A stretch of DNA of 32,806 bases from Bacillota bacterium. Its GTDB lineage: Bacteria > Bacillota > Sulfobacillia > DUMF01. Position 1 is the first letter of the stretch. Each line of letters begins with the position of its first letter. A program made the position numbers and the translations under genes. Positions 1,864 through 4,183 of this stretch are shown here, one piece after another. The notes under the pieces are model-generated. The model was not told the origin of the DNA. It ran no database searches and saw only the letters and a program-made list of their open reading frames with translations. The stretch spans positions 80,376 through 113,181 of the forward strand of contig DUMF01000017.1 in assembly GCA_012840015.1 (NCBI GenBank). The letters are read 5' to 3'.

Positions 1864-2178
1864 GTGGGAGTGCCAACCAAGGACATTGCAGAATACGGCT
1901 TGACGTTCTTCGTTGTGGCTGGCGTTCTATGGTGGGCGGCGAAAGCACTGGAGGCAAGGCGCAATGCGTCATCGGCGGTGCAGCCAACCAGCCTAGATCC
2001 GTTAAAACTCGTGATAGAAAACAACACTCAGGCTCTATGCCGCCTGACCGAGGCTGTGTCCGACTTGAAAGATGCGATCTTGCCACAACTTGCCAAGCAA
2101 GACGTTAAGCTAGACCTGCTTCTCAGCAAGGCATCGATGAGCGTGGGTGCACCTGGCAGGGAAGGTGAGAGTAGGTAG
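1864..2178 (+). CDS. Small phage membrane protein with one N-terminal TM (holin- or tether-like)
   Basis: The protein has 104 residues and starts at GTG 1864, with GAGGAGG six bases upstream. A single hydrophobic segment lies near the N-terminus (LTFFVVAGVLWWAAKALEA, about residues 13-31). A charged, probably coiled-coil region follows (TQALCRLTEAVSDLKDAILPQ and KQDVKLDLLLSKA). This layout resembles BhlA/UviB-like small phage membrane proteins and some holins or spanin-like accessory proteins. It is the first gene of the lysis module. The exact role (holin, antiholin or anchor) cannot be decided. Confidence 0.6.
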   Translation: MGVPTKDIAEYGLTFFVVAGVLWWAAKALEARRNASSAVQPTSLDPLKLVIENNTQALCRLTEAVSDLKDAILPQLAKQDVKLDLLLSKASMSVGAPGREGESR

Positions 2179-2197: not shown

Positions 2198-2908
2198 GTG
2201 AAGCTGATAGTTGCCACTGAGCGAGATAGAGACGCCTTCAACAAATACGTTTTGCAAAAACTCGACGCTCTCAGGGTAGGGACCGAAAAAATCCTTGAGG
2301 GCGTCACTGTTTATGTAGGACTCAATCCGCATGCCGAGCTTGCCCAGTTCAACCCGAACAACAGGAGGCCCCACTATGCGCCGGACGAGAAGTGCATTGT
2401 GATTCCCTCGCTATTTTGGGAACTAGGACAAGGCGATGTTCCAGCACAAGCCGAACTTGCAACGTTCTTCCATGAGTTGGGGCACCATTTACACTTCAGC
2501 TATATGGGCGAGGACGGCGGCCCCAAGTGGCGAGATTGGTCGGTCCTCACGGGTCAAACACTGGACTTCACCAAAAGAGACGACCTTAATTATCCGCGTA
2601 CCCCTGCTTACGAGTCCTTTGCAAACGACTTCCAACTCGCGATCACTGGTGCGTTTCCTGTGCCAGACACGCTCCGCCGCCTTCGCTGGTACGCGCGGTT
2701 GTGGGGCCAGGACTGGCGGCCGAGGATCGAGCTCTACATCGGGAAGCAGGAGGCTTTGGTATGCGGCCGCAAAGTCGACTTAGACGTCGCGCCGCTCATC
2801 ATCAAGGGGCGGACCCTGGTGCCGGTGCGCTTCATCAGCGAGTGTCTCGGGTTTGATGTCGATTGGGAGCCAAAATGGGGATATCCCGAAAAGGTCATAA
2901 TCACCTGA
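2198..2908 (+). CDS. Phage zincin-type metallopeptidase with C-terminal copper-amine-oxidase-N-like domain
   Basis: The protein has 236 residues and starts at GTG 2198; AGGGGGTG precedes it. Residues 90-98 contain a metallopeptidase zinc motif, HELGHHLHF (His92, catalytic Glu93, His96). YESFANDF follows at 138-145, whose Glu139 is a plausible third zinc ligand (gluzincin pattern). Residues about 190-225 (VDLDVAPLIIKGRTLVPVRF, then a Trp-Glu) match the copper amine oxidase N-terminal-like domain, a cell-wall-associated module common in clostridia. There is no signal peptide, so export would need phage lysis or a holin. Position between two holin-like genes and before the amidase suggests a role in lysis, wall degradation or virion release. 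The substrate is unknown. Confidence 0.72.
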   Translation: MKLIVATERDRDAFNKYVLQKLDALRVGTEKILEGVTVYVGLNPHAELAQFNPNNRRPHYAPDEKCIVIPSLFWELGQGDVPAQAELATFFHELGHHLHFSYMGEDGGPKWRDWSVLTGQTLDFTKRDDLNYPRTPAYESFANDFQLAITGAFPVPDTLRRLRWYARLWGQDWRPRIELYIGKQEALVCGRKVDLDVAPLIIKGRTLVPVRFISECLGFDVDWEPKWGYPEKVIIT

Positions 2909-2923: not shown

Positions 2924-3229
2924 ATGCCCGAAGGATTGAAGGATCTAATCGTGAACGGCGTCTCTGTCGTGGCAGTGATTTACGGTGTGATAGAAGCATT
3001 GAAGCAGGCCGGTCTGTTGAGGTCCTCGATTGCGCCGCTGGTAGCGATCGGCATTGGAGTCGTCTGCAGCGTGGCAAACAGTCTTTTTCCGCAGGCAACC
3101 AGCGTTGTCTTGCTGGGGGCGGGGCTGGGCATTATGGCATCTATCGGTTACGCTGGCCTCAAGAAAGCCGCGGATAACGCGAGCGAAGCCCAGAAGAAGG
3201 TCAACGAGGGGACTGGTGTAGATGCCTAG
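2924..3229 (+). CDS. Phage holin-like protein
   Basis: The protein has 101 residues and starts at ATG 2924, with AAGGAGG upstream. It has three hydrophobic stretches: VNGVSVVAVIYGVIEAL, IAPLVAIGIGVVCSVANSLF and VVLLGAGLGIMASIGYAGL. The tail is charged and Lys-rich. This size and topology fit holins that open the membrane for an endolysin without a signal peptide. Its end overlaps the start of the amidase gene by 8 bases, so the two are co-translated. The specific holin family is not identified. Confidence 0.78.
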   Translation: MPEGLKDLIVNGVSVVAVIYGVIEALKQAGLLRSSIAPLVAIGIGVVCSVANSLFPQATSVVLLGAGLGIMASIGYAGLKKAADNASEAQKKVNEGTGVDA

Positions 3230-3872
3230 GATTGTGATCGATCCGGGGCATGGTGGCTCCGATCCCGGAGCCATTGCAGTGAACGGGCGGCCGGAGAAAG
3301 AATCAAACCTCGCGGTCGCCCTTAAAGTTTGGGAGCTACTGCAGGGATCCGACGTTCAGGTGATATTGACCAGGACCACGGACTCCGATGTTAGCCTGGC
3401 CGAACGGTGCAAGCTTGCGAACAAGCTGCAGGCTGATGCTTTCATCAGCCTGCACGCGGACTGGAGCCCTAATGCTGGCACCAAGGGGCACCACGCGATA
3501 TGTTCCATCCATGCGAAGCCGGGCGAAGGCGGCCACAAGCTGGCGACGTTGCTCGTAACTGCGCTAACGGAACACACGGGCCGCGCAGCGTTCCACAAAG
3601 GGGTCTGGCAGCGGGCAAGTGACAAGGTGCCGGGCCGGGATTATTACGCCGTGATCAGGGATACTGCAATGCCGGCTGTCATCCTTGAGAGGGGATTCTT
3701 GAGCAACAGCGAGGACGCGGCGCTGCTGTTCAACGCAGAGTTCTTGGATAAGCAGGCTCAGGCCGTCGCCGAAGCCGTAAAGCTGTACTTCGACATACAA
3801 GTTGTAGACTGGCAGGCTCGTGCCTTGGCCGCTGAGGAGAAGCTCGCGCGGGTCCGCGAAATTATCGGATAG
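3222..3872 (+). CDS. N-acetylmuramoyl-L-alanine amidase endolysin (Amidase_3)
   Basis: The protein has 216 residues and starts at ATG 3222, with GGGGACTGG-like purines upstream. It is a complete Amidase_3 domain: IDPGHGG at 6-12 (zinc ligand His10), EKxxNL at 25-30 (Glu25), ISLHAD at 75-80 (His78) and the catalytic ILERGFLSN (Glu156). The enzyme cleaves the bond between N-acetylmuramic acid and L-alanine of the stem peptide. Residues after about 190 (WQARALAAEEKLARVREIIG) form a short charged helix, not a recognised wall-binding domain. With no signal peptide, release probably depends on the preceding holin. It is the last gene of the prophage before the terminator. Confidence 0.93.
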   Translation: MPRIVIDPGHGGSDPGAIAVNGRPEKESNLAVALKVWELLQGSDVQVILTRTTDSDVSLAERCKLANKLQADAFISLHADWSPNAGTKGHHAICSIHAKPGEGGHKLATLLVTALTEHTGRAAFHKGVWQRASDKVPGRDYYAVIRDTAMPAVILERGFLSNSEDAALLFNAEFLDKQAQAVAEAVKLYFDIQVVDWQARALAAEEKLARVREIIG

Positions 3873-3935: not shown

Positions 3936-4183
3936 TTGCTAATGCATTTGCAAATGTACGCCTCCGAATATTAGCAAACTTGCTCGGAATTAGACGCCTG
4001 CCGATAATGCATAAAACGTACTGGTGCAGGCGTAATAGGAAAGCAGAGTCTCTGCCCAGACATATACCTGCGCATTTGTAATCAGCAGGTTGTCGGTTCG
4101 AGCCCGACCGCCAGCTCCATGATTTTACCTGCTAAGCGATTTATGCATTTCCAAGCATCTCGGGGCACGATGGAGTTGCTAAT
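3936..4183. repeat. Short direct and inverted repeats around the attachment core
   Basis: TTGCTAAT occurs at 3936-3943 and 4176-4183, with its inverse ATTAGCAA at 3970-3977. ATGCATAA at 4007-4014 is inverted as TTATGCAT at 4141-4148. A perfect palindrome, CATTTGCAAATG, lies at 3945-3956. Such clustered short repeats are what arm-type integrase or excisionase sites look like, but their presence on both sides of the tRNA half means some may be unrelated. No gene is seen in 3924-4075. Confidence 0.4.
4075..4119 (+). other. 3' half of a tRNA-Thr(TGT) gene: probable attR
   Basis: From the anticodon loop onward the sequence is tRNA-like: TTTGTAA loop with anticodon TGT at 4077-4079, a perfect T-arm (GTCGG, TTCGAGC, CCGAC), acceptor strand CGCCAGC, discriminator T and encoded CCA at 4117-4119. 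The anticodon-stem 5' strand, D-arm and acceptor 5' strand are missing: upstream bases do not pair with TCAGC. Truncation at the anticodon loop, with phage genes on the left and host-like sequence on the right, is the standard result of integrase recombination in a tRNA gene. The intact restored tRNA-Thr should be at the other end of the prophage, left of the window. Confidence 0.82.

Follow-up and report, generated by a model that had tools for sequence, protein, structure and literature searches.

Zinc metallopeptidases of the M23 and M15 types are common as phage lysins, and small HExxH zincins without a signal peptide, such as ImmA/IrrE (M78), are also found in phages. The closest concept to the protein considered here is Listeria Mtz, a metzincin of phage origin that is found in prophages near holin-lysin genes and that acts with Tim to make cells more sensitive to phage lysis (PMC8235301). 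In a C. difficile phage, the endolysin CD16/50L carries a CWB2-like, host-derived binding domain and is exported through the holin (PMC9045149). The Cu_amine_oxidN1 domain (PF07833, hereafter CuAO) is reported to be frequent in cell-wall hydrolases (PMC4137172).

The window (the whole stretch of DNA analysed, 32,806 nucleotides, G000:C13:80376-113181) encodes a protein, hereafter the window protein, that joins a putative zincin to a CuAO unit in a prophage lysis module. As with Mtz, a predicted metallopeptidase lies by prophage holin-lysin genes, with a proposed accessory, envelope-acting role in lysis. However, Mtz has a metzincin motif and a signal peptide and is partnered by a lipoprotein (Tim), whereas the window protein has none of these, and displays instead an HExxH motif with a downstream Glu and a fused CuAO unit; no Mtz-Tim pair occurs at the locus, where the gene is flanked by one for a small one-segment protein and one for a holin. 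The window protein is not a member of the Mtz group. With CD16/50L it shares the combination of a phage lysis enzyme and a host-type surface module, but CD16/50L hydrolyses peptidoglycan and has a different binding module, and binding by the CuAO unit is here a prediction. Unlike ImmA/IrrE, the window protein has no M78 match, is encoded away from the repressor, and carries a CuAO unit. Its C-terminal unit scores above the family cut-off of the PF07833 (stalk domain) proteins of Bacillota, from which it differs by its single repeat, the lack of a signal peptide and its location in a prophage lysis module.

No published description of a zincin-CuAO family or of this layout was found, in a literature search thin on subscription papers. 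A previous reading based on the sequence alone (the sequence-only reading) had considered such a metallopeptidase a non-standard lysis component; what is new is the family and its layout only, because zinc metallopeptidase lysins (M23, M15) and the phage-linked metzincin cited above are already known.

A two-domain gene in a prophage lysis module

The relevant features are the following, with positions in the window unless a contig is given.
1864..2178, + strand: protein of 104 aa, a single hydrophobic segment near its N-terminus, holin-like in topology only
2198..2908, + strand: gene for the two-domain protein, 236 aa (ORF, GTG start)
About residues 1-172 of the 2198..2908 protein, + strand: predicted zincin-like N-domain
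2471..2488, + strand: HELGHH at residues 92-97, an HExxH motif with predicted zinc-binding and catalytic roles (sequence, conservation)
2612..2614, + strand: Glu139 in AYESFANDF, predicted as the third zinc ligand of a gluzincin-like site (conservation, alignment)
2723..2872, + strand: single Cu_amine_oxidN1 repeat (PF07833), residues 176-225 (Pfam E=2.1e-14)
2924..3229, + strand: holin, phrog_1299 (E=2.7e-10)
3222..3872, + strand: endolysin, N-acetylmuramoyl-L-alanine amidase, Amidase_3 (Pfam E=6e-46)
4074..4120, + strand: attR, a 47-bp exact copy of the tRNA-Thr(TGT) 3' part, prophage right end
G000:C13:45463-45509: attL in tRNA-Thr(TGT), repeat partner ~39 kb from attR

An integrase gene adjoins the attL/tRNA-Thr site, and an XRE repressor, a terminase-like protein, a portal, a Mu-F-like head protein, an XkdF-type protease, capsid-region genes, a tape measure and tail genes are found between the att sites, the integrase and terminase being assigned from their sequences. 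The att repeat, the integrase and the phage structural genes therefore place the gene in a complete-looking siphovirus-type prophage of 39 kb, 1.2 kb from its right end. Two further proteins of this prophage can be mentioned: upstream of the window, the Mu-F-like head protein (L031:971-1993) has a C-terminal stretch resembling a PBECR3 nuclease domain (E=2e-4, short of the Pfam cut-off), and a 102-aa HEAYH protein, probably ImmA-like, adjoins the XRE repressor (L064:5834-6142).

The genes at 1864-2178, 2198-2908, 2924-3229 and 3222-3872 follow each other tightly on a single strand, with the holin and the Amidase_3 endolysin directly 3' of the two-domain gene, in agreement with the lysis-module placement initially proposed. 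Two flanking holin-like genes had also been suggested: the downstream one has a genuine holin match, but a second holin was not confirmed in the upstream one (1864-2178), which shows the topology only, has no family match in Pfam or PHROG and does not resemble the BhlA holin found in a related cassette described below.

Domain assignment

The two-domain ORF previously read at 2198-2908 was confirmed, with its HELGHH motif and a CuAO unit scoring 53.8 bits against PF07833 (curated cut-off 24.2). This match covers model positions 52-101 of 108, the second half of a two-repeat model, and thus corresponds to one repeat. The same cut-off is passed by both prophage homologues presented in the next section (37.9 and 26.3 bits), and the existence of full-length homologues with both domains indicates that the fusion is more than a chance ORF. 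In PHROGs, the CuAO part weakly matched a family of the function-unknown class; no match to the PHROG lysis families of known phage endolysins was obtained with the window protein, nor any PHROG match with the zincin-CuAO proteins of the two homologues.

Searches of Pfam, PHROGs, NCBIfam and the PDB returned nothing for the zincin part. In particular, no match to Peptidase_M78 (ImmA/IrrE) was recorded in Pfam up to E=1, nor to ATLF, SprT or other Pfam zincins, which were limited to sub-threshold matches in one distant relative (L021). The metzincin signature HExxHxxGxxH/D is absent, as HELGHHLHFSY lacks both the Gly at +7 and the His/Asp at +10, while the gluzincin pattern of an HExxH motif followed by a conserved downstream Glu is present in the sequence (H92, E93, H96, E139). 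AlphaFold models built with four sequences were of low confidence, both for the window protein (pLDDT 40) and for an exported zincin relative (pLDDT 52), and Foldseek returned noise only and no useful PDB match. From its motif and the conservation of this motif, the window protein is probably a zincin. Its N-terminus has no hydrophobic segment and no signal peptide.

Homologues in other prophages

Single-sequence scans of the collections with the window protein returned no relatives, and the protein was absent from the 153 other genomes searched in its class. A weak match in genome G424 was homologous over the entire N-domain, with an alignment score of 81 as compared to at most 49 in 500 shuffles. 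A three-sequence profile built from this match and run across that class, blind to gene context, gave matches in seven genomes, two of which correspond to true two-domain homologues: L078 in G553 (223 aa, 30% identity to the window protein, BLASTP E=6e-27) and L077 in G540 (225 aa, 32% identity, BLASTP E=8e-31). The same domain pair, sought in other Bacillota prophages as the sequence-only reading had advised, was thus found. Residues common to all three prophage-type proteins include H92, E93, G95, H96, H99, E139, F141, A142 and D144, among others, so that the four predicted catalytic residues (H92, E93, H96, E139) are kept in each of them; N-terminal inspection revealed a signal peptide in none of the three.

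L078 belongs to a podovirus-like prophage, with a terminase small subunit, a portal/head-tail connector, a major head protein and an internal virion protein-like gene upstream, and is located directly 5' of a BhlA holin followed by an Amidase_2 gene. L077 is directly 5' of a phrog_1299 holin followed by an M23 peptidase, its other side being the contig end. The order zincin-CuAO, holin, wall hydrolase is therefore found in three cassettes, with holins of two families, hydrolases of three, and virions of at least two types (siphovirus-like and podovirus-like). Since both homologues were retrieved by a context-blind sequence profile, their lysis context represents independent evidence, and this conserved adjacency to a holin and an endolysin in independent phages assigns the protein to the lysis module.

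These three are the only known prophage-type members, and scans of the phage and viral-contig collections yielded none. A two-domain profile run across the phylum mostly drew host CuAO proteins, and was therefore replaced by a zincin-only profile; across 398 genomes, this profile detected no prophage-type member beyond those already known. Several candidates were discarded: L025-L027, retrieved from viral contigs with the pattern FHELGHHLHF, are phage proteins with a different C-terminus, no CuAO and local matches only; Acetoanaerobium and Paenibacillus plasmid matches, which extended over both parts, came from proteins that have CuAO only or are unrelated; and a match in phage MTATph1 was restricted to CuAO. 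A profile comparison with the window protein on both sides, being circular, was set aside.

Distant exported zincins and a chromosomal branch

The stretch from HExxH to Glu resembles that of mostly exported Bacillota zincins (hhalign probability 97%, residues 88-151; L011-L014, L018, L020-L022, L024, L051 and L052), a group characterized by HExGHHLH...EETFAED that has no Pfam family of its own. The HExxH region and the downstream Glu motif are shared, but these zincins are mostly 340-490 aa long, chromosomal, with N-terminal hydrophobic segments and without CuAO, and their N-terminal half is not detectably common with that of the window protein. The alignment score (76.8) exceeds those of 60 shuffles keeping HELGHH (at most 45.8) and of 60 shuffles keeping residues 85-103 (at most 72.8), and the Glu region therefore adds signal. 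Glu139, previously put forward as a plausible ligand, gains weight from this alignment and from its invariance in the three prophage-type proteins.

Chromosomal relatives were found in five genomes (L030:8597-9415; L049:8525-9130; L074:2839-3627; L075:8410-9183; L076:7869-8729), divergent from an XRE/S24-type repressor and with similar neighbours. They have the same N-domain as the window protein, no holin neighbour and no signal peptide. HExGH is kept in L030 only, while HELGR, QKLGR, RELGR and YKLSC are found among the four others. The conservation of His92, Glu93 and His96, which had been proposed as decisive for the zincin assignment, thus holds in all three prophage-type proteins and all 11 distant exported relatives, but is lost in 4/5 members of the chromosomal branch. 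Judging from their sequences, these proteins look like domesticated, catalytically dead descendants, possibly pseudo-enzymes with a regulatory role. A weak CuAO-like tail is present in three of the five (L030, L074 and L075, the last two below the Pfam cut-off), and because this decayed branch carries it too, such a tail alone is not proof of wall binding.

CuAO units in the host and in other phages

CuAO units occur at eight other loci of the host genome, mostly on exported proteins. The host unit closest to the phage one, by a modest margin over the others, is the C-terminal end of a 775-aa exported Ig-like protein (L065:11896-15666, G000:C11), which bears C-terminal CuAO repeats, adjoins an SLH protein and a subtilase, and is a candidate host surface-layer protein. 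An S-layer is plausible in this host, because it has several SLH proteins.

A secreted protein of G142 (L058:5022-6373, C29) combines two CuAO repeats with a glucosaminidase domain after a small holin-like gene, and represents a further CuAO-bearing enzyme of lysis type. Moorella phage MTATph1 CDS0084 (L009:7989-10034), annotated as hypothetical, is an apparently exported protein of ~680 aa with several CuAO-like repeats. In G140, an unclassified small HELGH protein (L061:1688-2176, C26) has a holin and an Amidase_2-glucosaminidase lysin as neighbours, with no detectable relation to the relatives of the window protein.

A proposed role in host exit

Because two other, unrelated viruses also carry it just before the genes responsible for bursting the cell, the zincin-CuAO protein probably provides an additional, little-known means of host exit. 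In the reading that we favour, and that we hold to be reasonably probable, the protein serves temperate phages as an accessory lysis metallopeptidase, released by the holin, held by its CuAO unit, and cutting envelope proteins. It would be made late, together with the holin and the amidase, and, lacking a signal peptide, would build up in the cytoplasm until the holin opens the membrane and lets it out alongside the endolysin. The CuAO unit, a module of the host's own exported proteins, would then retain the enzyme in the envelope, where the predicted HExxH/Glu139 zinc site may cut envelope proteins, preferentially S-layer or wall-associated proteins, and thus loosen the cell for burst and virion release. 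Wall association and substrate, both already suggested in the sequence-only reading, stay at the level of prediction, as do zinc binding and catalysis.

Alternatively, the enzyme could act as a second endolysin, a peptidoglycan endopeptidase cutting stem peptides or crosslinks with CuAO as its cell-wall-binding domain. This is unlikely, even though the gene adjoins a holin and an amidase and PF07833 often occurs in fusion with peptidoglycan hydrolases (PMC4137172; the glucosaminidase protein L058): the protein has no similarity to known peptidoglycan peptidase families, and peptidoglycan is a less likely substrate because each cassette already has its own hydrolase, an amidase in the present phage and an M23 endopeptidase in that of L077. 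The position of the gene after tail-region genes and the CuAO units of the large exported MTATph1 CDS0084 would fit a protein of the virion or tail tip, with its gene closing the tail module, that helps entry by cutting the surface layer, but its location directly 5' of the holin in all three cassettes, across two virion types and with no conserved structural neighbour, makes this improbable. A cytoplasmic regulatory protease or host-takeover factor (removing a repressor, for example) at a moron site by the lysis genes, for which the relatives divergent beside an S24-type repressor in five genomes and the missing signal peptide would speak, is likewise improbable, as these relatives mostly lack the active site and therefore do not act as proteases, the prophage carries a separate small HExxH protein adjoining its XRE repressor, and all three active-site-bearing members are at lysis genes.

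Returning to the accessory-lysis reading, a broader and more tentative proposal is that some Bacillota phages have a dedicated envelope-proteolysis step in lysis, in which a CuAO-anchored zincin, let out together with the endolysin, dismantles an S-layer or wall-protein coat. If true, this step would be a functional parallel of the outer-membrane step performed by spanins in phages of Gram-negative bacteria. To our knowledge, how a phage gets past the coat at lysis when its Gram-positive host is S-layered or heavily covered with protein is largely unexplored. A conserved, unmodelled metallopeptidase directly upstream of the holin and endolysin in unrelated phages makes this question testable, and the zincin-CuAO family may supply new anchored proteases for surface-coated bacteria.
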